Shown one piece after another: positions 27,328 through 52,131 of a DNA stretch of 64,000 bases. The notes beneath the pieces were generated by a model, which saw only the letters and a program-made list of their open reading frames with translations, was not told where the DNA came from and ran no database searches. Source of the DNA: Ideonella paludis (lineage in GTDB: Bacteria > Pseudomonadota > Gammaproteobacteria > Burkholderiales > Burkholderiaceae_C); NCBI RefSeq assembly GCF_018069865.1, contig NZ_JAGQDG010000004.1, forward strand, positions 248,001 to 312,000, read 5' to 3'. Position numbers and translations under genes: made by a program. Every line of letters starts with the position of its first letter. Position 1 is the stretch's first letter.

Positions 27328-27344
27328 GGGCGGGTGCCTGCACC

Positions 27345-27510
27345 CTAGTGTGGTGTTCGACGCTATCTGGAACATAAAGCCGCGTCTTTTGCGCCATGGC
27401 GGCGTTGCAAATCCTCGCGATACCACGGGGTATCGCTGCGGTTTGCGCCTTGCCCTGACCCAAAATCCATCGACTTTATTTGTTCCATCAAGCGTCAAAC
27501 ACCACACTAG
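27345..27510. mobile_element. MITE-like palindromic element, 166 bp, no coding capacity
   Basis: The ends are near-perfect inverted repeats: CTAGTGTGGTGTTCGACGCT (27345-27364) and AGCGTCAAACACCACACTAG (27491-27510) are complementary at 19 of 20 positions. The homology continues inward more loosely (GGAACATAAAG on the left; CTTTATTTGTTCC on the right). A second hairpin, GCGATACC/GGTATCGC, is at the centre. The element sits between the halogenase operon and tapT, close to the tapT start. No transposase is encoded, so it is a non-autonomous element or a large REP-like structure. Confidence 0.7.
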
Positions 27511-27587
27511 CGCAAGTCTGCGCCCGCCTCAGTCACCCGGGGGCGCAAGGCCGCGTGCGGCGGCCCAATGCGCTCATGTGAGGCACC

Positions 27588-29138
27588 TCAGGGCGCCATG
27601 GCCGGGCAAAAGCGTTTGACATAGCTCTGGTGGCTGGGCAGGTGTTCCAGCGCCGCCTCCACCCCCTCGCGGATCTGCCCCAGGAAGTGGCTCAGCTCCT
27701 CGTCGCCCATCAGGTCCGCGCTGGGGTGGTGCTGGCGGGGCCAAAGGCCTTGGCCCAGCATGACCTGGATCCAGGAGTTCTCGGCAAACAGCTCATTGCC
27801 CTTGCGGAAGACCCGGCCGGTCTCTTGAAACAGCTCGATGCGGTGCTGCAAGCTGGGCGGGATGCTCATGTCGCGGCAGGCCTGCCAGAAGGGCGTGTCG
27901 GCGCGCTGGGTCACCTTGTAGTGCAGGATGATGAAGTCGCGGATGTGCTCGATCTCGTCACGGGATTGGGCGTTGTATTCGGCCACATCGCTGGGGCTGA
28001 TGCCCTCGTTGGGGAACATTTGCAGCAGCCGCACAATGCCGCGCTGGATGAGGTGGATGCTGGTGGACTCCAAAGGCTCCAGGAAGCCGCTGGCCAGCCC
28101 CAAGGCCACGCAGTTGCCCACCCAGGTCTTCTCGCGCTGGCAGGGCTCGAAGGAGATGGGGCGCAGCGGTGTCAGCACCTCGCCGCTGATGCGGCCTTGC
28201 AGGGTCTGCTGGGCCTCGTCGTCACTCATGAAGCGGCTGGACCACACCAGGCCATTGCCCACCCGGTGCTGCAGCGGAATGCGCCACTGCCAGCCCGCTC
28301 CGTGCGCCATCGAGCGGGTGAAGGGCACCGGCTCGCCCGTGCTGGTGGTCTGCACAGCCAGGGCACGGTCGCAGAACAACCAATGCGACCAATCCTCGCA
28401 AGGCACTCCCAAGGTTTCGCCAATCAACAAGCCGCGAAAGCCGGTGCAGTCGATGAACAGGTCGCCCTCCAAGCGCGAGCCGTCGGTCAGTTGCAGGGCG
28501 CTGATGTGGCCGGAGTGGGGGTCTTGGTGGACAGCGCTGATCTTGCCCTCGCGGCGCTTGACGCCAAAGCCCTCGCTGAAGCTGCGCAGAAAGCGGGCAT
28601 AGCGGGTGGCATCCAGATGGAAGGCGTAGTTCAGCGGGGTCTGTGGCCCGCTGCTGGGGCGGTGGGCAAACTTGCTCTCTTGGGCCGCGCGCAGCTCCAG
28701 GCAGTAGTCGCCATAGTCGCCCGCCAAGCCGCGCTCACGCCCCTTGCGCCAAAAATGCTGAAAACCCGCCGTCCAATGGTCTTTGCCGGTCAGGCCGAAG
28801 GAGTGGATGTAATCCTCTTGCACCTGACGCCAGCTTTCAAACTGGATGCCCAGCTTGAAGGTGGCTTGCGTGGCCGACATGAAGGCCTGCTCTTGGATGC
28901 CCAGCAATTGATGAAAAGTCAGCAGTGTCGGGATGGTGGCCTCGCCCACCCCCACGGTGCCAATCTCATCGGACTCGACCAAGCAGATTTCGAGCCGTTT
29001 GCCCAGGGTGCGGCCCAGGGCGGCGGCAGCCATCCAGCCGGCCGTGCCGCCCCCAGCAATCACCACTTTGCGAATGGGCTTGGGGCTCGCCGCAGCAGTG
29101 GCCTGTGTAGCGGGTGTTGGCAAAGTCGGCTGGGTCAT
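27588..29138 (-). CDS. Flavin-dependent tryptophan-halogenase family protein 1
   Basis: A 516-residue FAD-dependent halogenase-like protein. It has the N-terminal Rossmann motif VVIAGGGTAGWMAA, the GVGEATIPTL segment, the candidate catalytic lysine K95 in ATFKLGIQFESW (equivalent to the Lys that carries the haloamine in PrnA/RebH) and the halogenase signature WxWxIP as WQWRIP (283-288). Key elements of a working halogenase are therefore present. Reduced FAD must come from a flavin reductase encoded elsewhere. It is the last gene of a five-gene operon (TonB receptor, halogenase 2, SapC, cupin, halogenase 1), starting 4 bp after the cupin gene. Natural substrate unknown; free tryptophan is not assured. 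Confidence 0.9.
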   Translation of the reverse strand: MTQPTLPTPATQATAAASPKPIRKVVIAGGGTAGWMAAAALGRTLGKRLEICLVESDEIGTVGVGEATIPTLLTFHQLLGIQEQAFMSATQATFKLGIQFESWRQVQEDYIHSFGLTGKDHWTAGFQHFWRKGRERGLAGDYGDYCLELRAAQESKFAHRPSSGPQTPLNYAFHLDATRYARFLRSFSEGFGVKRREGKISAVHQDPHSGHISALQLTDGSRLEGDLFIDCTGFRGLLIGETLGVPCEDWSHWLFCDRALAVQTTSTGEPVPFTRSMAHGAGWQWRIPLQHRVGNGLVWSSRFMSDDEAQQTLQGRISGEVLTPLRPISFEPCQREKTWVGNCVALGLASGFLEPLESTSIHLIQRGIVRLLQMFPNEGISPSDVAEYNAQSRDEIEHIRDFIILHYKVTQRADTPFWQACRDMSIPPSLQHRIELFQETGRVFRKGNELFAENSWIQVMLGQGLWPRQHHPSADLMGDEELSHFLGQIREGVEAALEHLPSHQSYVKRFCPAMAP

Positions 29139-29142
29139 GGTG

Positions 29143-30144
29143 TCAGCGGTTCAGAAGTTGCAGCAAGCGCGCCCGCAAGGGCCGAACCCGCTCGGGGCTC
29201 AGGGGGCCGAGCAAGCCCAGGGCGTGTGCCGGAATATGGGCGTGGCGGGTGGGCGGGTCAGCAAACACATAGTGGTGGAACTGCGCCGCCCAGGCTTGGC
29301 GCTGGGCCGGCGGCAAATCGCGTATAGACGACAGCGCCAGCAGCAATGCCGCCATCGGCGGGTCCATGAAGGCGGGGCTGGACCGCCACCAGTAGTTCAG
29401 CAACAGGTTGACGCTGTCCAAGGCCTCGACCTGATGCCACCACAGGCTGGGGATGAAGAGCGCATCGCCCGCCTCCAGCTCAAACACCTGCGCCGCCTGC
29501 TGAGCCTGTGCAAAGCGGGGGTAACGCGCTAGATCAGGCTCTGTCATGTCCACCAAGCTGATGGGCTGGCCCGCAGGCGTGAAGTCGAGCGGGCCGATGT
29601 AGAGATTCGGCAACTGCTCGGGCGCAAAGAGGGTGAAGCGCCGCCGCCCGGCCGCGACGCACGCCAGGTTGTCGGGCACATCTTGATGCGCGGCAATGCG
29701 CGTGCGGTTGCCCATCCAGAGGCTCATCAAGGCCTCTTGTGGCAAGCCTGATACGTCGTTCTCCCCCTGAAAGCCTGGGCAAACGCGCTCCACGGTGGTG
29801 GAGCCCACATAGAGCGCATCGGCCTGGGGCTGGCCAGCGCCCGCCACGAGCTGGCTCAGCACTTCATCTAAGCGGGCATGCTCGGCCGCAAAGTTAAAGC
29901 CGTCAAAGCGTTCGTTATAGAAAAAGCGCCCATGTGCACTGGCGGGCGCACGCCAGAGCGTGACCACCTCAGGCTGGCAAAAGCGCTTCACATAGGCCGC
30001 AAGTGCCACTGGGGACTGCCGCGCGGCCTGCACCACCGGCCAGTGGCTCACCAAACCCTTGAGCAGCACCGGCTGGCTGGGTGCCGGGCCTGACCAGGGC
30101 AGTGCCGGCGCCAGCCCTGCGGGCGATGCAGCGGGCTCAGACAT
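29143..30144 (-). CDS. Cupin-like (JmjC/FIH-type) domain protein
   Basis: A 333-residue protein with a JmjC/factor-inhibiting-HIF-like cupin core. The first iron ligands are probably H153 and D155 in RIAAHQDVPDN and the distal histidine H236 in PSLWWHQVEALD, giving an HxD...H triad; GRRRFTLFAPEQLPNLYIG is the usual strand after the first ligands. These features suggest an Fe(II)/2-oxoglutarate hydroxylase acting on a protein or peptide side chain. It overlaps the upstream sapC-like gene by 8 bp and is 4 bp from halogenase 1, so it belongs to the TonB-receptor operon. Substrate unknown. Confidence 0.85.
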   Translation of the reverse strand: MSEPAASPAGLAPALPWSGPAPSQPVLLKGLVSHWPVVQAARQSPVALAAYVKRFCQPEVVTLWRAPASAHGRFFYNERFDGFNFAAEHARLDEVLSQLVAGAGQPQADALYVGSTTVERVCPGFQGENDVSGLPQEALMSLWMGNRTRIAAHQDVPDNLACVAAGRRRFTLFAPEQLPNLYIGPLDFTPAGQPISLVDMTEPDLARYPRFAQAQQAAQVFELEAGDALFIPSLWWHQVEALDSVNLLLNYWWRSSPAFMDPPMAALLLALSSIRDLPPAQRQAWAAQFHHYVFADPPTRHAHIPAHALGLLGPLSPERVRPLRARLLQLLNR

Positions 30145-30847
30145 GCGCAGCGAGCGCCCGTGCTTGACGCTCCATCAAGCTCGCAAATTGCGACTGTGAG
30201 GCCAGCATCATGTAGAGGCATTGCAGGTGGCCCTGCGCATGCAGCTCCGCCAAGTCTGCGGCCTGCAAGGCCGCCAAACGGTCCTCATGGACGGTGTAGA
30301 AGCCACCCAACTTGTGCGCTTGGCCCTGGGCGTCCTGGGTTTCCAGCACAAAGGGCTCCAGCAAGTCGTGGCTCAAGAGCGCACGCAAGAACTCATCGGC
30401 CTGCTGCACACCGTGGTGGATGGCGCCCAAGATGTCACTGATGCGCTGAAGGTAAGGCGCAGTTCCGCCATGGGGCAAAAACAAAGGCTCACCCTGGCTG
30501 CGGCTGAGGCGCGGGCTGTCCAGGTCCACATGCACTTGCAAGCCTTGACCGTCGCGCCCAATCAAAAAAGGCAGGCGCTGCAGGGCCAGCGGGATGTAGG
30601 CCGCGTCCCAGCCCTGCGCGTCCAAAAACAGGTTTTGGCCGGGCTGAAGGCCCAGCAGGGCCACCGCTTGAAAGCTCAGGCCATCGGCCGTCTTTTGGTA
30701 AACGATGGGGTAATGGGCCTGCAGCGCCCGGAACTCCGCCGGAAAGGTGTGGGCCAACATCACCGCATCGCCCAAAGCGGCATCCCGGCGGGTGATGACC
30801 CGCAGGTCGTGGTGCTCGACGTTGTTGAGCAAAACGTGTTGGGCCAT
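30137..30847 (-). CDS. SapC family protein
   Basis: A 236-residue protein of the SapC family. The family name comes from a Campylobacter surface-layer locus, but its biochemical function is not known. Typical segments are the N-terminal HHDLRVITRRDAALGDAVML, VMLAHTFPAEFRALQAHYPI and KLGGFYTVHEDRLAAL. There is no signal peptide, so it should be cytoplasmic. The ATG at 30847 lies one base after the stop of halogenase 2; the longer frame overlapping that gene is unlikely. In other proteobacteria this family recurs beside TonB receptors and tryptophan halogenases, as here. Confidence 0.88.
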   Translation of the reverse strand: MAQHVLLNNVEHHDLRVITRRDAALGDAVMLAHTFPAEFRALQAHYPIVYQKTADGLSFQAVALLGLQPGQNLFLDAQGWDAAYIPLALQRLPFLIGRDGQGLQVHVDLDSPRLSRSQGEPLFLPHGGTAPYLQRISDILGAIHHGVQQADEFLRALLSHDLLEPFVLETQDAQGQAHKLGGFYTVHEDRLAALQAADLAELHAQGHLQCLYMMLASQSQFASLMERQARALAAHV

Positions 30848-30848
30848 C

Positions 30849-32438
30849 TCAGATCCTGTGCTGTCCGTGACGGACGATGTGTTGCAAAAGCTCACGCGGC
30901 GTGGGCAATGCCGCGGCCATTCGTTCGGTCTGGTGGCGAGCGTGCCGCATCAGGTGCATCACCTCGGCCGACAAGGGCTGTGCCGCGAGGCCCTGTGGCT
31001 TGACCCCCATGCCATACAGAATGTACTGGTAGCTGGCCGCGGGGAAGACCTCGTCGATGCGCCCAAAGTCATGCCGTGAGGGCGGGCGGGCGCGCCACAG
31101 CAAGAGTTGTTCGGCTAGACGCGCGGGGATGCTTTCGGCCTCTCGGTGCTCCCGCCAATAGGCCTCGTCCTGTCGCCGGCTCAGCACATAGTGCAGCTTC
31201 AGGAACTCAATCACCCGCCCCCACTTGTAGTGCATGGCCTCGTTGAAGCGGGCGGCCACCACCGGCATGTCCTCGCGGCTCGCGGGCAAGGTGTCGCTCA
31301 AAAGGGCGGCCGCCATCTCCACCATGGCCAGGGCCGAAGCTTCCAGCGGCTCAATAAAGCCTGAGGACAAACCGATGGCCACGCAGTTGTGCTGCCAAAA
31401 GCGCTCTCGATAGCCGGGCTCGAAGCTGATCTTGCGGGGCGTCAACGCCGCAACACCGTTGGCGCTGCGCTCCACATAACGCTCTAAGGTGGCCAGCGCT
31501 TGCGCATCACTGCAGTGCGCGCTGCTGTAGACCAGGCCGACGCCCCGGCGGCTCTGCAGGCCAATGTCCCACACCCAACCTGCCGCCTGGGCCGTGGCCA
31601 CCGTCTGCGTGGCGATGGGACTGTCCGGCGCGGTGTAGGGCACTTGGGTGGCCCAGGCGCTGTCATTGAACAGCACAGACTTTTGTGACTTGAGCCCGAC
31701 GCCCAAGTGTTGCCCCAGCAGCAGGCTGGCCATGCCCGTGCAATCCACGAAGAGGTCGCCCGGCACCTCGCCGTGCTGGGCCGTTTGCAGGCTCAGGATG
31801 TAGCCCTGCTCATCGCGCGTGATGCCCTGCACATCGGCAATGAGGTGGCGCACGCCAAGTTGCTCAAGGCAATGCCGCTTGAGCACTTGGCCAAACTTGG
31901 TGGCGTCGAAGTGATAGCCGTAGTTGGTGACGGCGGCGTACTGCGGCGTTTGCGCCTGCTTGGGTGCTCTGCCCGCATTGCACAGCACCGCTTGGGGGCA
32001 AGCCCATTCGGCAAAAGCTTGGTCGGGGAAATGGGTGGCCCAGGGCGTGACCACATCCAGCTCGCCAAAGCCTTCGGGCACGGAGAAGGGGTGGTGATAG
32101 CGGTCCTCAGGCGCACCGCTCACCCACCCGTCAAAGCGAGAGCCTTGCTTGAAGGCCGCGTCACACTCGGTGAACAGGGCATCTTCGGGCAGACCAATGG
32201 CTCTCAAGGTGTCGCGCATGGAGGGCCAGGTGCCCTCCCCCACCCCGATGATGGGCACGGCGGCAGACTCGATGAGCAGCACGCTCAAAGGCCGGGCCTG
32301 GTGGGCTTGGTGGGCTGCCGCCAGAATGGCCGCCACCAGCCATCCGGCGGAGCCCCCGCCCACCACCACCAGCCTCTTGACGCCTGCGCTCACGACAAGC
32401 TCACTCGCTGGATTCAGCTTAGAACTTGTAGCGTGCAC
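30849..32438 (-). CDS. Flavin-dependent tryptophan-halogenase family protein 2
   Basis: A 529-residue second halogenase-like flavoprotein. It has LVVVGGGSAGWLVAAIL, GVGEGTWPSM, a lysine K97 in AAFKQGSRFDGW at the position of the catalytic lysine, and FVDCTGMASLL. The WxWxIP signature is altered to WVWDIG (288-293): the two tryptophans remain but proline is replaced by glycine. It is clearly diverged from halogenase 1. The GTG at 32438 overlaps the end of the TonB receptor gene by 20 bp; an internal GTG at 32393 is an alternative. It is the second gene of the receptor operon. Activity as a halogenase is uncertain. Confidence 0.88.
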   Translation of the reverse strand: MHATSSKLNPASELVVSAGVKRLVVVGGGSAGWLVAAILAAAHQAHQARPLSVLLIESAAVPIIGVGEGTWPSMRDTLRAIGLPEDALFTECDAAFKQGSRFDGWVSGAPEDRYHHPFSVPEGFGELDVVTPWATHFPDQAFAEWACPQAVLCNAGRAPKQAQTPQYAAVTNYGYHFDATKFGQVLKRHCLEQLGVRHLIADVQGITRDEQGYILSLQTAQHGEVPGDLFVDCTGMASLLLGQHLGVGLKSQKSVLFNDSAWATQVPYTAPDSPIATQTVATAQAAGWVWDIGLQSRRGVGLVYSSAHCSDAQALATLERYVERSANGVAALTPRKISFEPGYRERFWQHNCVAIGLSSGFIEPLEASALAMVEMAAALLSDTLPASREDMPVVAARFNEAMHYKWGRVIEFLKLHYVLSRRQDEAYWREHREAESIPARLAEQLLLWRARPPSRHDFGRIDEVFPAASYQYILYGMGVKPQGLAAQPLSAEVMHLMRHARHQTERMAAALPTPRELLQHIVRHGQHRI

Positions 32439-35400
32439 CCAGCATGTAGCGTGGCCCCGTCTGCGTCACCGCGATCAGCTGCTCTTGCGTCCGGCCATGC
32501 AAGCGCTGAACCCCATCGTTGAGGTTGATGGCCTCGGCTTGGAAGCTCAGGCGATCGTCATACTTGTAGCCCACAGTCATATCCACCTGGCCATAAGCCT
32601 GGGTATAGACGGGGTTGGCCAGGCCGCTGCCATCGAACAAGCCGGTCAGGAACTTGTCGCGCCAGTTGTAGGCCAAACGGACTTGCCACTTGTCGCTTTC
32701 ATAGAAGCCCACCAAGTTGGCCGAGTCACCCAAGCCCAGCAAAGCAAACTGCGCCTCGCGACTGGCGTTGTCGTACTTCAAGCCCGAGGTGACCTTGGTG
32801 TAATTGGCGGAGACGCCAAAGCCGCTCTTGCCGAACACGTGTTGCCAGTTGAACTCCAAACCCTTGATGCGGTCAGAGCGCTGATTGACCGGTGTGGAGA
32901 TGGCAAACGTCGCCACCGGGTCCCCGGGCTGCCCAGCAATCGTGCCGGTCTTGTTGCCGTTGGCGTCATCTGGGCCGCGCGTCACGCCTTTTTGGCCGTC
33001 GTAGTTGGTGAAGATGTAGTTGCGAATGCAGGTCAGGTCGCTCTCGGCGCAGCCTTGCGCCACAGCTTCCTTGAACAAGGCGCCATTGGCTGGCGTGGTC
33101 AGGTTGAAGGGCGTGCCTTGCGTGGTGGTCACACCGATGAAGTTGTCGACATTCTTGACGAAGAGACCCAGAGCCACATAGCTGGCCTTGGCGTAGTAAT
33201 ACTCGGCCGAGAGATCGAAATTCTTAGACTTCAAAGGTTTGAGCGCCGGATTGCCTTGTGCGCCGGTGCCGCCGTCCAAGCGTGCCAACTGGTTCAGGGT
33301 CTGCCCGCCTTGAATGGCATCCCAGCTGGGTCGGCCAATGGTCTCGCCATAGCTGGCACGCACCTTGGTCTGGCTGTTGAGGTCCATGTCCCAGTCAATG
33401 CTGGGCAAGAAGTGCGAGTAGCTGCCGGTCAGGGTGGTAAAGCCGGGCGCGCCAAACTGGACCGTGAACTCGTTGTTACCCACCCAATTGATGCCGGTGG
33501 CCGTGGGCACCAAGGCGGTGGAGGTCACGTCCGTCTTCTCGTAGCGGCCGCCCACGGCAAGCTGCATGGGGACGACCAAGTCAAAGCCTATGTTGTATTG
33601 CAGGTGAGCGCTCTGGGACTTTTCCTTCACCCGGCGGTCCGTGGTGAAGACATTGGAGGCCAGATACAGCGACGGGTCACCACTGGCCTTGGCCGCCAGT
33701 GCACGCACTGTCTCAAAGTCGAAGGTGTAGAACTGGTTGAACAATGCTGGGTCGCTGCTGCCATTGATCTGGCCAAAGTACTGGCGCAGCGAGTCGAGCT
33801 TCCAAACGCTGTCGGGGTAGTCGGCCGCGCTGGTGGCGCCGCCCCAGGTGTCGCGCTGCACATTCGAGAAGGCAGTGCGGTTGTTCACCGTGGTGCTGGC
33901 CACACCGAAGTCCAGGCCAGAACCGTTATCGAACTTGTACTTGCCCTTGAACTGCACTTGGTCCACGCCGGACTTCATGTAGCTGTTGCGGAAGGTCGAG
34001 CCGGTGACCAGCATTGTGGAAGGATCAAGCGGCGCTGCAACGATGCTCAAGACGGGGAAGTCTTTGGTGAAGTCCACGCTGGTGGTGCCACGGGTAAAGG
34101 TGGCTGTGCCCAAGCCCGCGCTGGAGCCATAGGGGCTGTCTGCGCCCGACGTGGCGGTGGAGCTGTGTGCATCCAATTCCAAGCGCAGCTTGTCGGTGGC
34201 TTTCCAAGCCAGGTTCAGGCCTGTGGACTTGTTTTCGTTCTTGGTGGCGTACTGCGCCCCGGCCATCGCAATATCACTGGTGGCCGGGTTGATGGTCTCC
34301 GAGTAGAACTTGGGCGCGGCCACCGGGCCGTCCGTCCAAGAGCTCACAGATGGCCCGAAATTGAACCACGCCGACAACTCGTGGCGCTTGTTCTGCAGCT
34401 TGTTCTGGGAGTAGGTGTAGTCCAGCGTCGCGGTCAGCTCTTTGATCGGCGCATATTGCAGCGTGAGCTGGCCGTTGGTGCGCTGGCGCTTCACCGCGTT
34501 CACGCCGTACATGATGTTCTGCGGCACCGAGTAGATGTCGCTGGGCTTGGGCCGGTTGGTGATGTTCTCCGAGCCGGGCGTGCCAGGCTGAGGAATGGTG
34601 CCCCAGTTGTTCTCATCGCCCGCAAAGGGGCGCCAACCATTGGGCACCGACGCTTGGTTGAAGCCCAACTCACGCTCTTGGTAGCTGCCGGTGATGGCAA
34701 CACCAAACTTGCCATCGGCGAAGGTGTTGCTGTAGATGCCCGACAACTCCGGCGTCACCGAATTGCCCTGCAGCGCTTCAGGCAGGCGGCCCGCAGAGTT
34801 GTCGAACACACCCTTCAGGCCCACGCTGGCCTGCAGTCCGGGGTTGTCAAAGGGGCGCGCCGTCTTGATGTTGACCACCGCCCCAATGCCGCCCGAAGGG
34901 CTAGAGGCACGGCTGGTCTTGAACACCTCCAGGGCGCTCACCGACTCCGAGGCCAGGTTCGCAAAGTCAAAGGCACGCGAATTCGATGCGCCGGTGTCGG
35001 CAATGCTGGCGCCCGGCATTTGGCGGCCGTTCAGCAAGATCAGGTTGTAATCGGGACCAGCGCCTCGCACCGTGATGCGCGAGCCTTCACCAATGGAGCG
35101 GTCAATCGAGACACCGCTGATGCGCTGCAAGGACTCGGCCAGGTTGGTGTCGGGGAATTTGCCGATGTCCTCCGCCACGATGCCATCCACCACGCCCTGT
35201 GCGTCACGCTTCAAGCCCATGGTGGTTTCCAGGCTGCGGCGGATGCCCTTGACGACCACACGCTCCACCGAGGCATCGGCCGCACTGGCTGCTGATGCAG
35301 GGGCTGCGGGCTGGGCTTGCTGCGCCATAGCGCCACCCGCGCCAAGCGTCATCAACAAGGTGGCGGCCGTCGCCACCTGGGTCATCACAAATCGGTGGCG

Positions 35401-35442
35401 AGGCTGAGCCAACATGCGGCTCTGGCTGAAGCGTGGGGTCAC
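32419..35442 (-). CDS. TonB-dependent receptor (Caulobacter/Xanthomonas carbohydrate type)
   Basis: A 1007-residue outer-membrane active transporter. A signal peptide (hydrophobic core TAATLLMTLGAGGAMAQ) is followed by a plug domain with VKGIRRSLETTM, NLAESLQRISGVSIDR, EGSRITVRGAGPDYN and ALEVFKTSRASSPSGGIGA. A long beta-barrel ends in the aromatic residue typical of porins (GARYKF). The GTG at 35442 is chosen because AAGGAG lies 6-11 bases upstream. This subclass is usually linked to complex carbohydrate uptake and to tryptophan-halogenase/SapC genes. It heads the five-gene operon and has a perfect LacI-type operator 79 bp upstream, tying it to glucan use. The ligand is presumably a glucan oligosaccharide. 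Confidence 0.93.
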   Translation of the reverse strand: MTPRFSQSRMLAQPRHRFVMTQVATAATLLMTLGAGGAMAQQAQPAAPASAASAADASVERVVVKGIRRSLETTMGLKRDAQGVVDGIVAEDIGKFPDTNLAESLQRISGVSIDRSIGEGSRITVRGAGPDYNLILLNGRQMPGASIADTGASNSRAFDFANLASESVSALEVFKTSRASSPSGGIGAVVNIKTARPFDNPGLQASVGLKGVFDNSAGRLPEALQGNSVTPELSGIYSNTFADGKFGVAITGSYQERELGFNQASVPNGWRPFAGDENNWGTIPQPGTPGSENITNRPKPSDIYSVPQNIMYGVNAVKRQRTNGQLTLQYAPIKELTATLDYTYSQNKLQNKRHELSAWFNFGPSVSSWTDGPVAAPKFYSETINPATSDIAMAGAQYATKNENKSTGLNLAWKATDKLRLELDAHSSTATSGADSPYGSSAGLGTATFTRGTTSVDFTKDFPVLSIVAAPLDPSTMLVTGSTFRNSYMKSGVDQVQFKGKYKFDNGSGLDFGVASTTVNNRTAFSNVQRDTWGGATSAADYPDSVWKLDSLRQYFGQINGSSDPALFNQFYTFDFETVRALAAKASGDPSLYLASNVFTTDRRVKEKSQSAHLQYNIGFDLVVPMQLAVGGRYEKTDVTSTALVPTATGINWVGNNEFTVQFGAPGFTTLTGSYSHFLPSIDWDMDLNSQTKVRASYGETIGRPSWDAIQGGQTLNQLARLDGGTGAQGNPALKPLKSKNFDLSAEYYYAKASYVALGLFVKNVDNFIGVTTTQGTPFNLTTPANGALFKEAVAQGCAESDLTCIRNYIFTNYDGQKGVTRGPDDANGNKTGTIAGQPGDPVATFAISTPVNQRSDRIKGLEFNWQHVFGKSGFGVSANYTKVTSGLKYDNASREAQFALLGLGDSANLVGFYESDKWQVRLAYNWRDKFLTGLFDGSGLANPVYTQAYGQVDMTVGYKYDDRLSFQAEAINLNDGVQRLHGRTQEQLIAVTQTGPRYMLGARYKF

Positions 35443-35520
35443 AGTGTCTCCTTCGATGTGCCAGAGGCTGTCGCTCTGGCCATTCCGTTTTGTCAGGGTC
35501 TGCTCGGGTCTGCCCAGCAA

Positions 35521-35534
35521 TGAAAGCGCTTTCA
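35521..35534. promoter_or_regulatory. LacI-type operator (TonB receptor/halogenase operon)
   Basis: TGAAAGCGCTTTCA, a perfect 14-bp palindrome with the central CpG typical of LacI-family sites. It lies 79 bp upstream of the receptor start and downstream of the terminators of the lipoprotein gene, so it acts on a promoter of the receptor operon. Identical palindromes precede the other units of the locus. Confidence 0.85.
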
Positions 35535-35546
35535 TTACTGGGCGTG

Positions 35547-35596
35547 AAAAGGCACCTCGCTCAGAGGTGCCGGTGCGGGGGCGATGCGTCGCCCCC
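35547..35596 (-). terminator. Double hairpin terminator after the carbohydrate-binding lipoprotein gene
   Basis: On the minus strand a first hairpin, GGGGGCGA/TCGCCCCC (35596-35577), is followed by a second, GGCACCTC/GAGGTGCC (35571-35551), with TTTT directly after it (35550-35547). The second is a canonical intrinsic terminator. It separates the lipoprotein gene from the TonB-receptor operon, which therefore needs its own promoter. Confidence 0.8.
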
Positions 35597-35605
35597 GGCT
35601 GGTCG

Positions 35606-37084
35606 TCAGTTCACAAAGGCCAAGTCATCAAAGTAGAAAGTGCCACCGCCGCCATTGGCGCCCGTGGTCCCGAAGTTGAAGAACACCGACGCCTTGTTGT
35701 AGGTGTAGCTCAGGTTCAGGGCCGCCGTGCCGGTGGCTTGATTGGCAAAGTTGAAGGTCAAGGTCTGCCAACCGTTGGCCACCGTGGTGGTGGCCTCGGT
35801 CTCGACACTGCGGGTGCCGTCGGCCGCGTCCTCCACCTTCAGGCGCACCGGAATGCCGGCGGTCGGCGACCAGACGCGCAGCGTCATGCTGGTCTTGGTG
35901 GCGGTGAAGGGAATGGTGTCCAGCGTGAAGTTCGCACCGGTCGAAATGGTGGTGCCTGCCCACAGTTCGGCCGTGTTGGACTTGGTCGCACGGCCCACCT
36001 TGTTGGCGGCGTTGGTGGGGTCTACCACCACGGCAGAGTCCTCGGCGCCGCCAAAGCCCGTCAGGGTGTAGGTCACCGCAGTATTGTCAAAGCTGACGGG
36101 GAACACGCTGGCTGGTGGTGTGGGGCAAGCCACTTGGAAGCTGGAACCAACGAAGGTCAGGTCGTCCATGAAGTAGACCTTGTCGCCACCGTTCTGGGCG
36201 CCGGTCTTGCCAAAGGCGAAGAAGATCGAGGCCTTGTTGTAGGTGGTGGCCAAGTCCAGCGCAGCAGTGCCGGTGGCCTGGTTCGCGAAGTTGAAGGTCA
36301 AGGTTTGCCAGGTGCCCGCTTCGGCTGTGGTGGCCTCTGTCTCCACACTCTTGGTGCCGTCACCCGCGTTTTCGACCTTCAGGCGAACGACGGTGTTGGC
36401 ATCAGGACTCCAAACGCGAGCAGTCATGGTCTTGTTCGCGTCGCTGAAGGGCAGCGTGACCAGCGAGTTGCTCGGGCAGATCGCCACGGTGGTGCCGGCC
36501 CACAGCTCCGCGCCCGCAGCCTTCAGCACGCGAGCAACCTTGTTGGCGGCGTTGGTGGGGTCCGCCACAATGGTGGCGTCCTCTGCCCCCCCAAACCCGG
36601 CGAAGGTGGGCGCGGTGGTTTCGTCAAAGCTGACCAGCGTGGTTTTGGTCACCGGCGGCACGGTGTTGTAGGCCTGCGTGGCGCTGGCTGCTGCGGTGTT
36701 GGCATTGTTGGCGGCGTCGGCAAACTTGCCAGCCGCCACGCTCACATCCAAGGTGCCGGCGTTGTTGGCCGTGGGCGTGACGACCAAGGTGGCTTGAGTG
36801 GTGCTGACCGTCGTGAAGGTGCCTTTGGTGCCACCGGTGACCACCACATCGTCGGCGGTGAAGCTGGTGCCCACGCTTTCGCTGAAGGTGAAGGTGAAGG
36901 TCACAGGGCCAGTAGCCGTAGCATCGCTCACATTGTCGGTAATGGCCACGGTAGGCGCCGTGGAGTCGGCCGGGGGCGTGGGCGTGGGTGGCGCTTCAGC
37001 GTCGCCGCCGCCGCAAGCGGACAGCAACAGGGCAGCCGCCAAAGCGGTGGCGGTCGGGGCAAAGCGGTGCAGGGTCTTGTTCAT
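35606..37084 (-). CDS. Lipoprotein with Ig-like domain and tandem carbohydrate-binding-like repeats
   Basis: A 492-residue secreted lipoprotein. The signal peptide ends in the lipobox LSAC (C24), followed by GGG and a Pro/Thr linker. Residues about 45-145 form a bacterial Ig-like domain (FTFSESVGTSFTADDVVV). Two tandem repeats of about 160 residues follow (about 151-312 and 330-491), each starting VSFD, containing TNAANKV and AELWAGTT, and ending in a DDL strand, consistent with beta-sandwich carbohydrate-binding modules. The ATG at 37084 gives the signal peptide. With an upstream LacI operator and a place between the TonB receptor and GH81 genes, it probably displays a glucan-binding surface, a role analogous to SusD-type proteins but unrelated in sequence. 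The ligand is inferred. Confidence 0.8.
   Translation of the reverse strand: MNKTLHRFAPTATALAAALLLSACGGGDAEAPPTPTPPADSTAPTVAITDNVSDATATGPVTFTFTFSESVGTSFTADDVVVTGGTKGTFTTVSTTQATLVVTPTANNAGTLDVSVAAGKFADAANNANTAAASATQAYNTVPPVTKTTLVSFDETTAPTFAGFGGAEDATIVADPTNAANKVARVLKAAGAELWAGTTVAICPSNSLVTLPFSDANKTMTARVWSPDANTVVRLKVENAGDGTKSVETEATTAEAGTWQTLTFNFANQATGTAALDLATTYNKASIFFAFGKTGAQNGGDKVYFMDDLTFVGSSFQVACPTPPASVFPVSFDNTAVTYTLTGFGGAEDSAVVVDPTNAANKVGRATKSNTAELWAGTTISTGANFTLDTIPFTATKTSMTLRVWSPTAGIPVRLKVEDAADGTRSVETEATTTVANGWQTLTFNFANQATGTAALNLSYTYNKASVFFNFGTTGANGGGGTFYFDDLAFVN
35609..36097 (-). repeat. Second copy of the intragenic tandem repeat (C-terminal module of the lipoprotein)
   Basis: This module runs from VSFDNT to DDLAFVN. 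It matches the copy at 36149-36634 in both protein and DNA, including long near-identical DNA stretches around the FNFANQATGTAAL coding segment, which points to a duplication within the gene. Confidence 0.75.
36149..36634 (-). repeat. First copy of the intragenic tandem repeat (lipoprotein)
   Basis: This module runs from VSFDET to DDLTFV and is the partner of the copy at 35609-36097, separated by a short cysteine-containing, Pro-rich linker (QVACPTPPASVFP). The shared pattern includes TNAANKV, AELWAGTT, RVWSP, SVETEATT and NKASxFFxFG. Confidence 0.75.
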
Positions 37085-37213
37085 GCTTGTCTCTCTCTCA
37101 CTGGGTCGTGGTGGTCCCATCGGCCAAGCCCGCGGCTTGGTGGTGGGGGTGGTGGAGCCCGCAATGGGGCAGGTTCGGACAGATCAAACTTTCGGTGCAA
37201 CGAATTGAAATAT

Positions 37214-37298: not shown

Positions 37299-39599
37299 TC
37301 AGGGCTGGGACGCCGATTGCGCCAAGCTGCCCGGTGCCACGCTCAGGGTCTTGCCGTCACTGAACTTCACGTTGAGCGGGGCCTTGCCCGGATTGAAAGC
37401 CATATAGGTTTTGCGGCCATCGGCTTGCTTGAAGACGGCATACAGCGGTGTGTCAGCCTTGACGCTCAGGTCGGGTGCGCCCCACTGGCGCAGGCCCAGC
37501 AGCATGTGCAGCGCATGGCTGCGGCTGTCGCCCAGCTCGACCGCGCCCCAGCGGTTCCACTGGGCCAAGCCAGCGGCGGGGTCGGCCAAGCCCATGTACT
37601 TGGCAAAGATGTCTTGCCAGATGTCCGGCGGGTCGGCCCGCTTGCCGCGTGAGGCATGCAGGTCCATTTCGCCTTTGAGCGCGCCGAGGTTCTTCTTGAC
37701 ATAGCTGGGGCTGCTGGCCAGGTAGGCCGACGCGGTGGTGATGGGCAGCAAGTTGATGCCCTTGATCTGGCGGGGCTCATCCGTCCACCAGGTGTTGTGG
37801 GCCAGGCGGCCGCCAAACACCATGCTGACTTCGACGTTTTTGTAGTCCTTGGGCAAGGTCAGGCCGTGGATGTCGAACCAATAGTGGTTGATGGCCTGCA
37901 CTTCGGTGCTGTAGAGAAAGGCACCCAGGTCACGCAAGGCGGTGTTGCCAGTGACCTCACCCCAGAGGATCAGGCCGATCCAGGCGTTGATGGCCTCAGA
38001 GGAAGACTCTTGGTTGTTGCCATGCGGCCCCAGGCCCACGCCCGAGGCCCACGAGTGGCCCTCGTACACATCGAAATTGCGCACAAAAGGAAAGCGCGAG
38101 CCGCCGCGCTCCATCGTGGCAATGTCGGCCACCAGCATCTCGACCATGCCGCCCCAGCGCTCTTTGGCCGCCCAGGCTGGGTCGCGCAGGGCCACCTCGG
38201 CGGCGGCACGGATCCAGTAGCCATAGTGGAAGTGGTGGTCGTTCATTTGTTCGACCGCAAAGTACTCGTCCGGATAAGCCACCACGGTGCCCAGGCGGGT
38301 GTCATAGTGGAAGTAGGTCTTGCTGTCATTCCCGGACAGCCACTCTTCAAAGCGGCCTTGCACCAGCTTGAGCAGCTTGTCGCGGCCCTCGGTGTCCCCT
38401 TGTTGTTCAACGACGTCCATCAATTTCACGACGCGCTGCAGGCCCTTGCCCTGCCAGTACGCGCCCTTGCCGATTTCCAGCATCATGCGGCGGGCATTGC
38501 GCTGGTCGGTCTTCATCACGTCCGCCAATTCAGCGGCCTTGTCGCCCGCATCCACCTTGGGCCAAAAGGGCACAAAGCCGTGATAGGGCTTGCGGGTGCT
38601 GAACTGGCCACCCGGCAACAGCTTGAGCGGGCCACGGATGGTGGTGTAGGCAGGGCCCAGCTTGCCCGCCAAGCTGGCGTTGTTGAACCAGTGGTGGGGA
38701 TAGAGCGCGAGCAGTGGGCCGTGGTCCGGCCCTTCCATGACTTCGGCACGGCTGCGGTAGTCGGCCTGTACCTCGCTGGCCGCTGGGTCGTAGCGCCACT
38801 GCACCTCGGTATGGGTCAGAAAGGCATAGGCATGGCGGGCCACCAAGCTCAGGCTGGCGGCCGTGTCATCGGGCAGCGCGGCGGCGGCCAGATAGCCCTT
38901 GCCGGCCGGCAAGCGAGCCACCCACTGGCCGGGGCCAGAGGACTCCCAGCGCACGCCCGTCGGGCCAAAGGCCGCATAGCGCTTGACGCCCACCGTGATG
39001 TGCAGTTGGCGGGCATCGTCGGCCGCCACTTGGGCGGTGGCGCCTGTGGGCAAAGCCAGGCCTAAGTCACCGCGGCTCAGGCGCATCTGCACATAGGGGC
39101 TGCCGTGCGCCAAGGTGGCGGTGAATTGATCGGGGCCCTGCCCCATCGCAATGTCAATGGCCCAGTCGCTGGCACGCGCCAGCTTGGGGCGGTCAGCCTT
39201 GAAGCCAAGCGCACTGAAGCGCAGGGGCTCGGTGTGCGGATAGTGGATCTCGGTGTCTTTGCGCTCGGTGGGCACCACCACTTGGCTGGGGTAGGCCATT
39301 TCCAGGCCGTCGGTGGTGGCTTTGACCGTCAAGGGCTGGGCATAGAGCACCTCAGGCTCTTTGGCGAACACCAGGGCCGAATACCACTGGTTGGTCGGTG
39401 CAGCCTGTTTGGCCATGGCGTCAGTGCGCCACAGCGCGGCCGGAGGCGGCGCATCACTGCCACGCGGCTTGGCTTGATAAGCGCCTGCCCCCACCTTCAC
39501 GGCCTGAGCCTGGGCCGCAGGCGTGGCCCACAGGAGCAAGGCAGCCCCGATGGCGACACTGCAGGCCATGAGCGGGCTGAATGAGCAAGCACGGCGCAT
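37299..39599 (-). CDS. Secreted GH81 endo-beta-1,3-glucanase
   Basis: A glycoside hydrolase of family 81, inverting endo-beta-1,3-glucanases that attack laminarin, curdlan or fungal wall glucan. The ATG at 39599 gives a 766-residue protein with a normal signal peptide (MRRACSFSPLMACSVAIGAA, then cleavage near AQA); an upstream ATG at 39641 would add 14 residues. The catalytic region is clear: NDHHFHYGYWIRAA, then EGHSWASGVG and NNQESSSEAINAW, which carry the conserved acid and base of GH81. It ends with a small beta-domain. It is transcribed alone and is divergent from the porin gene across a region with three LacI-type operators. It probably makes the first cuts outside the cell. Confidence 0.92.
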   Translation of the reverse strand: MRRACSFSPLMACSVAIGAALLLWATPAAQAQAVKVGAGAYQAKPRGSDAPPPAALWRTDAMAKQAAPTNQWYSALVFAKEPEVLYAQPLTVKATTDGLEMAYPSQVVVPTERKDTEIHYPHTEPLRFSALGFKADRPKLARASDWAIDIAMGQGPDQFTATLAHGSPYVQMRLSRGDLGLALPTGATAQVAADDARQLHITVGVKRYAAFGPTGVRWESSGPGQWVARLPAGKGYLAAAALPDDTAASLSLVARHAYAFLTHTEVQWRYDPAASEVQADYRSRAEVMEGPDHGPLLALYPHHWFNNASLAGKLGPAYTTIRGPLKLLPGGQFSTRKPYHGFVPFWPKVDAGDKAAELADVMKTDQRNARRMMLEIGKGAYWQGKGLQRVVKLMDVVEQQGDTEGRDKLLKLVQGRFEEWLSGNDSKTYFHYDTRLGTVVAYPDEYFAVEQMNDHHFHYGYWIRAAAEVALRDPAWAAKERWGGMVEMLVADIATMERGGSRFPFVRNFDVYEGHSWASGVGLGPHGNNQESSSEAINAWIGLILWGEVTGNTALRDLGAFLYSTEVQAINHYWFDIHGLTLPKDYKNVEVSMVFGGRLAHNTWWTDEPRQIKGINLLPITTASAYLASSPSYVKKNLGALKGEMDLHASRGKRADPPDIWQDIFAKYMGLADPAAGLAQWNRWGAVELGDSRSHALHMLLGLRQWGAPDLSVKADTPLYAVFKQADGRKTYMAFNPGKAPLNVKFSDGKTLSVAPGSLAQSASQP

Positions 39600-39653
39600 G
39601 GGCTCAGCAGCCGAGCGGGAGGAGGCGAGGTGAATGTGCATGAGCGCATCATA

Positions 39654-39830: not shown

Positions 39831-39891
39831 ACATTTCGTGTTTTCCTTGAAAGCATCCGCCCCTGCGGGCCCTCCACACCAGGCTCACACC

Positions 39892-41238
39892 ATGTCCTCC
39901 ACCGTGCCCTACCCTTTGCGCCGCCAACCCGCCCCGCAGCGGCGCGCCTCTGGCTTCACACCTCAGCTCAGCCACCTGACGATGGCCGTCTTGCTGCTGA
40001 GCAGCCCCTTGGCGCAAGCCGTGGACTGGGGCCCGTTCACGCTGACGGGCTTTGCCAAGGTGGAGTTCCAACGCGGCTCCAACAACTGCGAAGACTGCCA
40101 ACGCTTCCCCGAAGAAAACCGCCAGCGTTTGTGGGCAGACGAAGTGGTGCCCGGCGCCCACTACGGCACCCGGGAAACCCATGTCACGCTGATGCAGCCT
40201 TACCTCGCCAGCAAGTTCGACCTGGGCCAGGGCTTCAAGCTGCAAACCCTGCTGAGCCAGCGCTGGCGCGATGGCAAGTCCGACATCAAGGGCTTTTGGT
40301 ACGAGAAAAACATTGCGCTCAGCCATGAAGACTGGGGCAGCGTGCGCTTTGGCGCCATGCCGACCCGCGCGTGGAGCATGGCCGACTACCCCTACGGCAC
40401 CCAAATCGGTGTCAGCGATTCCTGGGCCTCCAGCGGCGCGGGCTATGGCTTGCTGATGCGGGCCTTGCGCGTCAGCAGCCGCCCCTTGGATGTGGCCGGC
40501 GGCGACTTGGTGCTGGAAGCCACTTATGACGAAGGCAACGGCGGCTTCAAGATCAACAAGCCGCGTTTTGTGGAGTTGTATGCGCAGTACGTGAAGGGAG
40601 ATTTGGTGCTGGACGCCATGGTGCAAGACACCCGCAACGGCACGCCCTCGGCCTGGGGCCATGGCCCCTTCACCGGCCTGACGCCCTTCTCCGCCGATGA
40701 CGCCAAGCTGGGCGGCTCTGGCCAAAGCATTGCCATGCTGATGGCGCGCTATCAAGTGGACAGCAAATGGGAAGTGCTGGGCGGTGTGCGCCGCAACCGC
40801 TGGAGCGGCGCCTACGCGGTGATCACCCAGCCTGGCCCACCCGCGCAGTGGAACGAGATGTTCAACGTGCACTGGAACGGCACGCTCAACGGCGTGGCCA
40901 ACCCCGGTTATGCCGCGACCTCCACCGACTTCAGTGGCGGCGTGCGCTACCGCCTGGGCGACTGGACGGCCTCCACCGGCATGGTCTATCTGGGCAAGGC
41001 CAGCACGAACAACCCCAGCGAGCGCGGCCAAAGCAATAGCGCGCTCATCAACACCGTGGGTCTGAACTACGACTTCCGCAATGGCCTGCAGGTCTACGGC
41101 ATGGCGGGCATGGTGAAGTACGGCCGCCTGGGTTTGGCGCCGCTGTCCATGCCCAGCAACTCGGCCTTCACCGGCGTGGACCCTCGAGTGACCACCTCGG
41201 GCAACTGGTTCGGCGCTGGCGCCGTCTACACCTTCTGA
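39892..41238 (+). CDS. Outer-membrane porin-like beta-barrel protein
   Basis: A 448-residue secreted beta-barrel protein. The N-terminus has a long basic stretch and a hydrophobic core ending in SSPLAQA|VDWG, a signal peptidase I site. The mature protein has alternating hydrophobic strands (FTLTGFAKVEFQ, GLQVYGMAGMVKYG) and ends in AVYTF, the C-terminal aromatic signal for barrel assembly. The segment NNCEDCQRFPEE contains two cysteines near the N-terminus. The ATG at 39892 is chosen; a frame-open TTG upstream is less likely. It heads an operon with GH17 and GH30 genes behind a LacI operator, so a glucan-oligosaccharide channel is the best inference. Exact porin family not identified. Confidence 0.8.
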   Translation: MSSTVPYPLRRQPAPQRRASGFTPQLSHLTMAVLLLSSPLAQAVDWGPFTLTGFAKVEFQRGSNNCEDCQRFPEENRQRLWADEVVPGAHYGTRETHVTLMQPYLASKFDLGQGFKLQTLLSQRWRDGKSDIKGFWYEKNIALSHEDWGSVRFGAMPTRAWSMADYPYGTQIGVSDSWASSGAGYGLLMRALRVSSRPLDVAGGDLVLEATYDEGNGGFKINKPRFVELYAQYVKGDLVLDAMVQDTRNGTPSAWGHGPFTGLTPFSADDAKLGGSGQSIAMLMARYQVDSKWEVLGGVRRNRWSGAYAVITQPGPPAQWNEMFNVHWNGTLNGVANPGYAATSTDFSGGVRYRLGDWTASTGMVYLGKASTNNPSERGQSNSALINTVGLNYDFRNGLQVYGMAGMVKYGRLGLAPLSMPSNSAFTGVDPRVTTSGNWFGAGAVYTF

Positions 41239-41249
41239 GACACACCATC

Positions 41250-42989
41250 ATGAGCACCCCTTCCCTCTTCTTTACGGGCCTGGCCGGGCGCACCCGTGCG
41301 CTGGCTGCCGGCTTGCTGGCGATGCTGATGGCCGCCTTGTTGGTGGCCTGCGGTGGCGGCGGCCAAGTGCCGGCGCAAACCGTGCAGGCGCGCACGTTGA
41401 GCCCTGAGTTCTTCAGCCGCAAAGCCGTCAATTACTCGCCCTACCGCACCAGCAACCGCGACACCGAAGTGGTCACCTCGGCCAACATCCAGCAAGACCT
41501 GGAGTTGCTGGCTCAAGGTGGCTTCACGCTGATCCGCTTGTTTGACAGCTCAGACGCCGTCGCCCGGGCCACCTTGCAAGTCATCAAAGACCGCAAGCTG
41601 GACATGAAGGTGATGCTGGGCGTGTATGTGGCCAGTGGCGACGACGCTTTCTCCAAGGCCGAGATGGCCCGGGGCGTGGCCTTGGCCAACGCGTACCCAG
41701 ACATCGTGCTGGCGGTCAGCGTGGGCAATGAAACCATGGTGAGCTGGTCCTTCAACAAGATCGCCCCCGAGACCATGGCCGGCTACATCAGCACCGTGCG
41801 CAACCAGATCACCCAGCCGGTCACCACCGACGACAACTGGGCCTTCTGGGCCTCGGCGCCCAAGATCATCACCGACGTGGTGGACTTTGCGGCCGTGCAC
41901 ACCTACCCGCTGCTGGACACCATCTTCTCGCCCGACCTGTGGGACTGGCAGCAGACCAGCGTGCCAGCCGCCAGCCGTGCTGCTGCGATGATGGACGCCG
42001 CCATTGCCTCGGCCAAGAAGGAATACAGCGCAGTGCGCACCTATCTGGATGGCCGCGCCCTGACCAATATGCCCATCGTGATTGGCGAGACGGGCTGGAA
42101 GGCCATTCCGGCCGGCGGCGAGACCTCGCGCGCCCACCCCGTCAACCAAAAGATGTACTTCGACCGCCTGACCGCCTGGAAGGCCGAAGCTGGCGCGCCC
42201 AAGAACATCTTCTACTTCGAGGCCTTTGACGAGCCCTGGAAGCAAGGCGACGACAAGTGGGGCCTGTTCAATGTGAACCGCCAAGCCCGCTATGTGGTGC
42301 AAGGCCTCTACCCGCAAAACCTGTGGGAGCCGGGCAGCTACACCGCCGCCGACGCGCTTTACTACATCCCGCCGGTGAACAACGGCCCCGTCACCGCCAA
42401 CCGCTACACCCTGTATGCCGAGGTGGCCGCTGCGGGTGAAGCCAAGCCTTCTGAGAACGGTGTCTTCAATGCGTGGGAGAACGGCAGCACCGCCGCCTAC
42501 CCGGAGGTGTCCTCGACCGCCGCCCCCGGCGACGGCAGCAAGAGCATCGAGATCACACCCACGCCGCTGGTGTGGGGCTGGGGCTTGGCCTTGGGCCTGC
42601 CCACCACGGCTGAAGACCTGAGCAACTTTGGCAGCACAGGCCGCCTGAACTTCAGCATCAAGACCACCTATCCCGGCAAGCTGGAAGTGGGCTTCCTGAC
42701 GGGCACCACGGCCGGTGGCAGCGCCTATGACGTCTACCTGCCCTTGAGCAGCGGCGAGTACGGCTATGTCAACGATGGCCAATGGCATGAGGTGTCGATT
42801 CCCATCAGCGCCATCACCCCGTTTGGCGCCATGGCCTTCGGCATGACCGACCCCGCCAAGTCCAAGCTGGACCTGACCAAGGTGACCAACCCCTTTGTGA
42901 TCGCCGACCGCTACGGCGTCACCGGCAAGGCCCAAGGCAGCGCCATCAACACCAAGATCTATATCGACAAGATCTATTGGTCCAAGTGA
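41250..42989 (+). CDS. GH17-type beta-1,3-glucan hydrolase/transglycosylase, surface lipoprotein
   Basis: A 579-residue lipoprotein. The signal peptide ends in LVAC (C34) followed by GGGG, so it is membrane-anchored. Residues about 55-370 form a GH17 (beta/alpha)8 barrel: AVNYSPYRTSN, FTLIRLFDSS, the acid/base E161 in VSVGNETM and the nucleophile E280 in VIGETGWK, then FYFEAFDEPWK. Residues about 390-579 form a beta-rich module with aromatic residues that resembles a carbohydrate-binding domain. It is 11 bp from the porin gene in the same operon. It should act on laminarin fragments at the cell envelope. An intrinsic terminator lies after it. Confidence 0.9.
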   Translation: MSTPSLFFTGLAGRTRALAAGLLAMLMAALLVACGGGGQVPAQTVQARTLSPEFFSRKAVNYSPYRTSNRDTEVVTSANIQQDLELLAQGGFTLIRLFDSSDAVARATLQVIKDRKLDMKVMLGVYVASGDDAFSKAEMARGVALANAYPDIVLAVSVGNETMVSWSFNKIAPETMAGYISTVRNQITQPVTTDDNWAFWASAPKIITDVVDFAAVHTYPLLDTIFSPDLWDWQQTSVPAASRAAAMMDAAIASAKKEYSAVRTYLDGRALTNMPIVIGETGWKAIPAGGETSRAHPVNQKMYFDRLTAWKAEAGAPKNIFYFEAFDEPWKQGDDKWGLFNVNRQARYVVQGLYPQNLWEPGSYTAADALYYIPPVNNGPVTANRYTLYAEVAAAGEAKPSENGVFNAWENGSTAAYPEVSSTAAPGDGSKSIEITPTPLVWGWGLALGLPTTAEDLSNFGSTGRLNFSIKTTYPGKLEVGFLTGTTAGGSAYDVYLPLSSGEYGYVNDGQWHEVSIPISAITPFGAMAFGMTDPAKSKLDLTKVTNPFVIADRYGVTGKAQGSAINTKIYIDKIYWSK

Positions 42990-43012
42990 GCGCAAGCCCA
43001 CTCCACCATCCA

Positions 43013-46940: not shown

Positions 46941-46953
46941 CAAAGGTTCCGGA

Positions 46954-47853: not shown

Positions 47854-47854
47854 G

Positions 47855-48910: not shown

Positions 48911-48911
48911 A

Positions 48912-50279: not shown

Positions 50280-50331
50280 GGGCGGACGAGGGCCGTGAAA
50301 GCGTCGAGTGGGGCAGATGATGGGCAGCGGT

Positions 50332-51168: not shown

Positions 51169-51179
51169 GACAGGGGCCC

Positions 51180-52115: not shown

Positions 52116-52131
52116 GGCGTCAGCGGTGCTC

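Follow-up and report, generated by a model that had tools for sequence, protein, structure and literature searches.

A TonB receptor operon under a LacI-type operator in Ideonella paludis carries a conserved halogenase-SapC-cupin cassette that may mature the receptor

We analyzed a 64,000-nucleotide stretch of the Ideonella paludis genome (contig NZ_JAGQDG010000004.1, positions 248,001 to 312,000; hereafter the window, numbered from its first letter), in which five consecutive minus-strand genes run from 35442 to 27588. They encode a TonB-dependent receptor, a halogenase-family protein (HalA), a SapC-family protein, a cupin/JmjC-like protein (Cup) and a second halogenase-family protein (HalB). 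We propose, with a probability of about 45%, that this operon combines a glucan-inducible receptor with a dedicated maturation cassette, whose products would modify residues of the receptor before its export. The direct basis for this proposal is the gene content and order, the operators, the catalytic residues and their conservation, and the association of halogenase genes with receptors in other genomes.

The five genes are tightly packed, as the sequence-only reading of this DNA had described, and no junction exceeds 20 bp (Table 1). HalA and SapC are separated by 1 bp (SapC starting at ATG 30847) and Cup and HalB by 4 bp, SapC and Cup overlap by 8 bp, and the receptor and HalA overlap by 20 bp if HalA starts at GTG 32438. 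The coordinates of that reading hold except at the receptor start, for which we prefer GTG 35442 over ATG 35535. The first ATG of the receptor open reading frame (35533-35535) overlaps the operator at 35521-35534. By our reading of the sequence, GAAGGAG stands 5 nt ahead of GTG 35442 and what follows resembles a signal peptide, which makes this the likelier start. Because it is taken as the start, the operator lies about 79 bp upstream of the receptor gene; an operator within the gene, which follows from a mis-set start codon, was rejected. The receptor passes TIGR01782 with 616 bits (cut-off 310) and has the plug and barrel domains PF07715 and PF00593. Its AlphaFold2 model (mean predicted local distance difference test score, pLDDT, of 85.5) matches solved TonB receptors. 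No signal peptide is visible by eye in the sequences of HalA, SapC, Cup and HalB.

The sequence-only reading had called for a genome survey of the gene order and of the operators before it; both were run, and the order proved to be conserved across many genera, random association not being found. SapC genes are present in 56 of 149 genomes, that of the window included. Among relatives, we examined the stretches around 58 of 73 SapC matches: in 48 the SapC belongs to another subfamily and no other cassette gene is present, nine show the five-gene order, and one has the order without HalA. Searching a species collection with an alignment of cassette SapC proteins returned 210 matches, from which the best 80 were taken; as this alignment was built from cassette members, the set favors loci resembling that of the window. 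L046 and L102 proved to be one locus and were counted once, leaving 90 loci: the window, 10 from relatives and 79 from the scan. The order receptor-(HalA)-SapC-Cup-HalB was found in 75 of them, 54 with HalA and 21 without, and a receptor was present in 84. Of the six receptor-less loci, four end too close to the contig end to hold one.

Among the 15 loci outside both main orders, eight stop at a contig end (L105, L108, L114, L115, L121, L137, L151 and L148). The operons of two Paucibacter genomes (L104, L106) lack Cup, which these genomes carry elsewhere (L300, L301). L154 has two SapC sets, L168 has HalB ahead of Cup, L120 carries a second HalB ahead of HalA, and L179 shows no HalB. In the Xanthomonas locus L153, the receptor appears as two adjacent open reading frames (330 and 1092 bits), which may reflect a sequencing error or a broken gene. 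The cassette is carried, among others, by Ideonella, Rubrivivax, Massilia, Lysobacter, Xanthomonas, Peristeroidobacter, Shewanella, Ferrimonas, Catenovulum and Kordiimonas. Order and operators are retained across beta-, gamma- and alpha-proteobacteria. The distribution is nevertheless patchy, since cassette-type Cup occurs in only 8 of 369 genomes of a class-wide sample, that of the window included.

We further investigated the association between halogenases and receptors in seven genomes, six behind survey loci and that of the window. Of the 33 PF04820 genes, 29 have a TIGR01782 receptor at a distance of 6 kb or less, as do 15 of the 19 outside cassettes, about 3% being expected by chance. 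Only two receptors of the window's own genome entered, both beside halogenases; with this genome excluded, 14 of 18 non-cassette genes lie within that distance. A comparison of coordinates places 12 of 16 SapC genes in the seven genomes in receptor-halogenase operons. Eight of the 69 receptors examined have the full cassette, three SapC and a halogenase, nine a halogenase only, and 49 none of these.

These pairs are found with diverse sugars. The window's own genome holds a second receptor-halogenase pair (L043, contig C11:161500-181000) in an alpha-glucan locus with alpha-amylase family proteins, a solute-binding protein, a MalF-type and a second ABC permease, and an S9 peptidase. Elsewhere, halogenase-only receptors stand by a cyclomaltodextrinase in Shewanella (L293) and by a protein of glycoside hydrolase (GH) family GH31 (L261), and Kordiimonas L286 has SapC and two halogenases before a GH20 gene. 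In a tree of 81 of the 151 aligned receptors, the 20 full-cassette rows form one side of one branch (SH-like approximate likelihood ratio test, 100), and the halogenase-only labels require six changes. Halogenases thus stand mostly beside glycan receptors in the genomes examined, which argues against reading them as secondary-metabolite genes, even if their target were something other than the receptor.

Both halogenases match PF04820 far above the cut-off of 21 bits, and the glycines of the GGGxxGW dinucleotide-binding motif are invariant in the two halogenase alignments (10 and 12 rows). Counting one sequence per locus with fragments dropped, K97, E366 and the WxWxI motif of HalA are kept in 64 of 64, and K95 and E357 of HalB in 86 of 86; the WxWxI motif is present in every HalB sequence examined. 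K95 and E357 align with a lysine and a glutamate of PyrH that we take to be its catalytic residues. By profile and catalytic residues both proteins belong to the flavin-dependent halogenase family, and halogenating activity is predicted for them. HalB matches 6Y1W (Xcc4156) with an E value of 4.6e-229, and the HalB of the Xanthomonas cassette L147 does so with 1026 bits. HalA matches 2PYX with an E value of 1.2e-157, and the HalA of the Shewanella locus L162 with 871 bits. 2PYX, named "Tryptophan halogenase", is presumably of Shewanella origin; no functional study of it was found in the open-access literature searched, where the two papers mentioning it are crystallographic by title. The reports on Xcc4156 and BrvH, the nearest relatives of HalB, describe an open active site, no halogenation of free tryptophan, no tryptophan-binding loop of the kind seen in free-tryptophan halogenases (PrnA/RebH/PyrH type), and a native substrate reported as unknown, possibly a peptide (PMC7336383, PMC5945002).

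The HxD...H metal triad of Cup is kept in 87 of 87 sequences. The closest solved relatives of Cup are JMJD5, FIH and JMJD7 (E 7.8e-17 to 1.5e-10), protein hydroxylases with other, known targets. From sequence, Cup appears to be a Cupin_8/JmjC-like protein of the Fe(II)/2-oxoglutarate oxygenase type, with protein hydroxylation as its predicted activity. In L262, a DUF6445 protein (L262:4266-4979) takes the place of Cup behind receptor, HalA and SapC, and the L262 receptor is sister to the cassette receptors in the tree. DUF6445 is possibly another oxygenase family; it has no solved relative by sequence.

A sequence search of the PDB found no relative of SapC, whose name derives from an S-layer surface protein. 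Its model is confident (pLDDT 96, predicted template modeling score 0.90), and a Foldseek comparison with the PDB gave no match at E ≤ 0.001, the best being 0.14. All 90 cassette sequences retain H12, E38 and W80, as does an alignment that takes in 20 stand-alone SapC proteins; these residues may mark an active or binding site. A stand-alone SapC encoded in the window's own genome (contig C20:231407-232090; L002, L042) belongs to another subfamily that is common in relatives. The surroundings of stand-alone SapC genes differ among L042, L067 and L074.

We next turn to the control of the operon. The 4,800,525-bp genome contains five perfect copies of the operator TGAAAGCGCTTTCA, all inside one 18-kb beta-glucan locus, and none of the 14-mer read backward. 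This bears out the earlier claim that the site before the receptor operon also precedes the glucan transport and hydrolase units. Since receptor, hydrolases and transporter are all preceded by this palindromic operator and a LacI gene is linked to them, the locus looks like a compact LacI-type beta-1,3-glucan regulon, in which the regulator would bind the shared operators. No sigma-70-like promoter was found in a scan of 27300-35640, and an overlap of promoter and operator thus could not be demonstrated.

In relatives, we searched for the operator from 400 bp before to 100 bp into the receptor open reading frame, at the 83 loci where this frame scored above 500 bits and had enough upstream sequence. 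The LacI-type palindrome TGnnAnCGnTnnCA is present in 68 of the 83; neither of two control patterns was found at any of the 83, and 173 of 3400 random 500-bp windows from the 68 loci contained the palindrome. Half-sites vary by lineage, with TGAAAGCGCTTTCA in the window's kin, TGGAAACGTTTCCA in Massilia, TGACAACGCTGTCA in Lysobacter kin and TGTAAGCGCTTACA in Shewanella. The palindrome was not found at L076, L143, L145, L150 and the 11 surveyed Xanthomonas loci, 15 of 83 in all. At one of the latter, L147, the five scanned neighbors are a DUF885 protein, a Coa1-domain protein, dipeptidyl peptidase IV, a glutathione S-transferase and TonB, which are not glucan genes; the L147 receptor, beside an Xcc4156-type enzyme and without the operator, may import something other than glucan.

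Table 1. Features of the receptor operon and of the surrounding glucan locus (window coordinates)
Feature	Position	Strand	Evidence and remarks
TonB-dependent receptor (TIGR01782)	32419..35442	-	Profiles, sequence reading and model; likely start GTG 35442; first gene of the operon
HalA (halogenase A, PF04820)	30849..32438	-	395 bits; nearest solved relative 2PYX; WxWxIG form; K97/E366
SapC-family protein (PF07277)	30137..30847	-	230 bits, cut-off 28.9
Cup (Cupin_8/JmjC-like, Fe(II)/2-oxoglutarate oxygenase type, PF13621)	29143..30144	-	230 bits; HxD...H = H153, D155, H237
HalB (halogenase B, PF04820)	27588..29138	-	641 bits; nearest solved relative 6Y1W = Xcc4156; K95/E357; WxWxIP
LacI-type operator TGAAAGCGCTTTCA of the receptor operon	35521..35534	.	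Perfect match
Lipoprotein-like protein (Big_12)	35606..37120	-	Lipobox and duplicated domain by eye; own operator 37214-37227
GH81-type protein (endo-beta-1,3-glucanase family)	37299..39641	-	Operator 39655-39668
Divergent unit: 466-aa protein without Pfam match and GH17-type protein	39838..42989	+	Operator 39817-39830
Two GH17, GH16, ABC ATPase, GH1, two ABC permeases, solute-binding protein	45050..53454	-	Operator 53486-53499
LacI-family regulator	53616..54650	-	Two-mismatch operator copy just upstream at 54692-54705

The Big_12 lipoprotein gene of the locus is a companion outside the conserved cassette. Two open reading frames of the glucan locus have no Pfam match, at 39838-41238 (466 aa) and 42974-44416 (480 aa).

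To describe the neighborhoods of the cassette, we counted the families of 117 of 126 picked flanking genes from 18 of the 90 loci. The commonest are MFS (nine proteins), GH1 (seven), GH3 and GH16 (five each), LacI (four) and ABC ATPase (three). None of the 25 commonest of the 129 families found is a natural-product or aromatic-catabolic family, and a secondary-metabolite cluster was rejected on this count. This, together with the presence of the enzymes in unrelated glycan loci, supports the earlier view that the operon does not serve secondary metabolism. The flanking proteins also include two of DUF6445 and two with a sulfatase-maturation (FGE-sulfatase, formylglycine-generating type) domain; a protein with this domain lies downstream of the cassette at L175:8230-10500.

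How could such a cassette work? LacI binding, the order of events, the substrate, the chemistry, the role of SapC and the benefit to the cell are what we infer in the following scheme. A LacI repressor would silence the receptor operon and the glucanase and ABC units as long as no glucan oligosaccharide is available, a common control suggested by the shared operators. HalA, SapC, Cup and HalB would then act in the cytoplasm on the newly made, unfolded receptor, with SapC as an adaptor or chaperone presenting it. HalA and HalB would attach halogen (or oxygen) to aromatic side chains, with tryptophans of extracellular loops as the most likely sites, and Cup would hydroxylate another residue. The finished receptor would be exported and assembled, with sugar binding or loop stability tuned at the cell surface. 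We favor the receptor as substrate because it is the near-constant neighbor, the four proteins have no visible signal peptide, their active sites are intact and Cup is kin to protein hydroxylases, and also because the HalB family has an open active site and the enzymes are indifferent to the sugar of the locus. If the receptor is the substrate, it follows that modification precedes export and that SapC is the natural candidate for an adaptor. We hold more tentatively the full form of this scheme, in which a sugar-induced cytoplasmic pathway would halogenate and hydroxylate an outer-membrane receptor before export with SapC as substrate adaptor, and in which enzymes of the Xcc4156, BrvH and 2PYX types would be receptor modifiers.

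Receptor tryptophans are candidate targets in this scheme. W270 is present in each of the 90 cassette rows, which represent 84 loci because six rows repeat a locus under a second id, and in 11 of 12 other halogenase-linked receptors; it is suggestive as the best candidate for a common target, without being significant. W270, W359, W533 and W653 would lie on the long-loop side, taken as the outside, as read from the strand order of the model rather than computed. Many further residues are invariant in cassette receptors when these are compared with unlinked ones, including H426, W359, W533, N162 and Q898; as targets these are uninterpretable, since the cassette receptors form one lineage. Comparing the receptors of 59 HalA-positive and 23 HalA-negative loci, the largest aromatic difference is at Y237 (88% versus 35%) and some tryptophans run the opposite way; these HalA-linked differences are probably lineage signal.

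Several observations weigh against receptor maturation. No tryptophan column differs by more than 0.30 with the presence of HalA, the best being W280 (86% versus 57%). W270 is also found in 28 of 49 unlinked receptors (Fisher p 0.04 before correction for the many columns), its paired test on the tree cannot reach significance, and the plain columns G185 and L137 associate more strongly than it does. Conserved loop tryptophans can also be explained by sugar binding. At the level of the loci, most of the TIGR01782 receptors examined (49 of 69) have no halogenase neighbor, no HalB was found at L179, and two receptor-less loci have another gene directly before HalA, close to the contig end (a GH1 gene at L148, a second HalB at L120). 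Finally, the absence of the operator from all 11 Xanthomonas loci means that the link to LacI is not universal.

Among the alternatives, the nearest keeps the receptor as target and changes the chemistry: HalA and HalB would be hydroxylases of peptidyl tryptophan (or another aromatic residue) or cross-linkers, like QhpG and LodB. LodB is a flavoenzyme that oxidizes tryptophan inside a protein. QhpG is the best NCBIfam match of both enzymes (E 5.5e-7 for HalA, 3.5e-5 for HalB), and HalB also matches CmlS and LodB, all far below cut-off. QhpG is described as a peptidyl-tryptophan dihydroxylase acting on tryptophan within a protein (PMC7876137). Yet the halogenase lysine, glutamate and WxWxI motif are kept in every HalA and HalB sequence examined, and bromination of model substrates in vitro is reported for Xcc4156, of the HalB family (PMC7336383). 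We regard this alternative as unlikely. Less likely still, the enzymes could make or modify a small molecule as part of glucan use, for instance an indole-type or aromatic signal, or the aromatic moiety of a glycoside taken up by the cell. All four cassette proteins look cytoplasmic, and relatives are reported to halogenate free indole derivatives in vitro (PMC7336383, PMC5945002); against this stand the flanking families, devoid of natural-product and aromatic-catabolic functions among the 25 commonest, and the pairing of the same enzymes with receptors of chemically different glycan loci.

The target could also be another surface or periplasmic partner, such as a lipoprotein, TonB or a solute-binding protein. 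TonB_C proteins account for 3 of the 117 flanking proteins, and the Big_12 lipoprotein gene of the window has the same operator as the receptor. However, the receptor alone is a near-constant neighbor (84 of 90 loci), and a one-protein search of 20-kb stretches found Big_12-type proteins, window aside, only at L046/L102 (one locus), L105, L109 and L111; we rate this partner slightly below the small molecule. The sequence-only reading had left the choice between the receptor and an associated surface protein or glycan; its first option is the one we favor. The receptor is thus preferred over a sugar-specific metabolite or a surface lipoprotein because it is near-constant and because the enzymes recur in unrelated glycan loci. 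Chance or common regulation alone, with enzymes of unrelated general function, is very improbable: other-subfamily SapC genes do stand without the other cassette genes in 48 of the 58 relatives' stretches, but order and operators are kept across three proteobacterial classes, and 15 of 19 non-cassette halogenase genes also adjoin receptors.

The crystallized halogenases of this group had native substrates reported as unknown (PMC7336383, PMC5945002), and genomics now offers a concrete candidate, the adjoining receptor. If true, receptor maturation would constitute a new type of bacterial protein modification, assign a function to the SapC family and introduce a maturation stage into TonB-dependent glycan uptake. 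The enzymes would also be, to our knowledge, the first halogenases with a nutrient-uptake membrane protein as natural substrate.

Among the papers listed by our searches, none describes the receptor-halogenase-SapC-cupin cassette in its title or the opening of its abstract; the search was confined to open-access literature, and absence from print is not implied. Co-occurrence of these genes in Xanthomonas and Caulobacter has reportedly been noted; no such text was found. Carbohydrate utilization loci with TonB receptors resemble the window in that a receptor is encoded together with an inner-membrane transporter, hydrolases and a regulator. The text of a paper on such loci does not contain "halogenase", "SapC" or "cupin" (PMC1790865). 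The indole halogenases BrvH (6FRL) and Xcc4156 (6Y1W) are of the same family as HalB, and the BrvH text does not contain "TonB" or "SapC", nor the Xcc4156 text "TonB" (PMC5945002, PMC7336383). 2PYX is the solved relative of HalA. The flavoprotein maturases QhpG and LodB are work-alikes that differ by their target, which is no receptor, and the matches to them are weak and below cut-off. Cup shares its HxD...H triad with the JmjC protein hydroxylases JMJD5, FIH and JMJD7.

A close parallel is the Shewanella Bgl (beta-glucoside) pathway, where LacI-type control by BglR extends to a TonB receptor (omp-Bgl) and beta-glucan genes, as in the window (PMC2996990). The main text of that paper does not contain "halogenase", "SapC" or "cupin". 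In Shewanella salipaludis (L162), GH1, MFS_2 and LacI genes are followed by receptor-HalA-SapC-Cup-HalB; both GH1 and the receptor are preceded by LacI-type sites, and from this layout the L162 receptor would be omp-Bgl. Altogether, the locus of the window appears as a variant of LacI-controlled glycan uptake loci that carries a receptor-linked enzyme cassette, with the receptor as its putative substrate.

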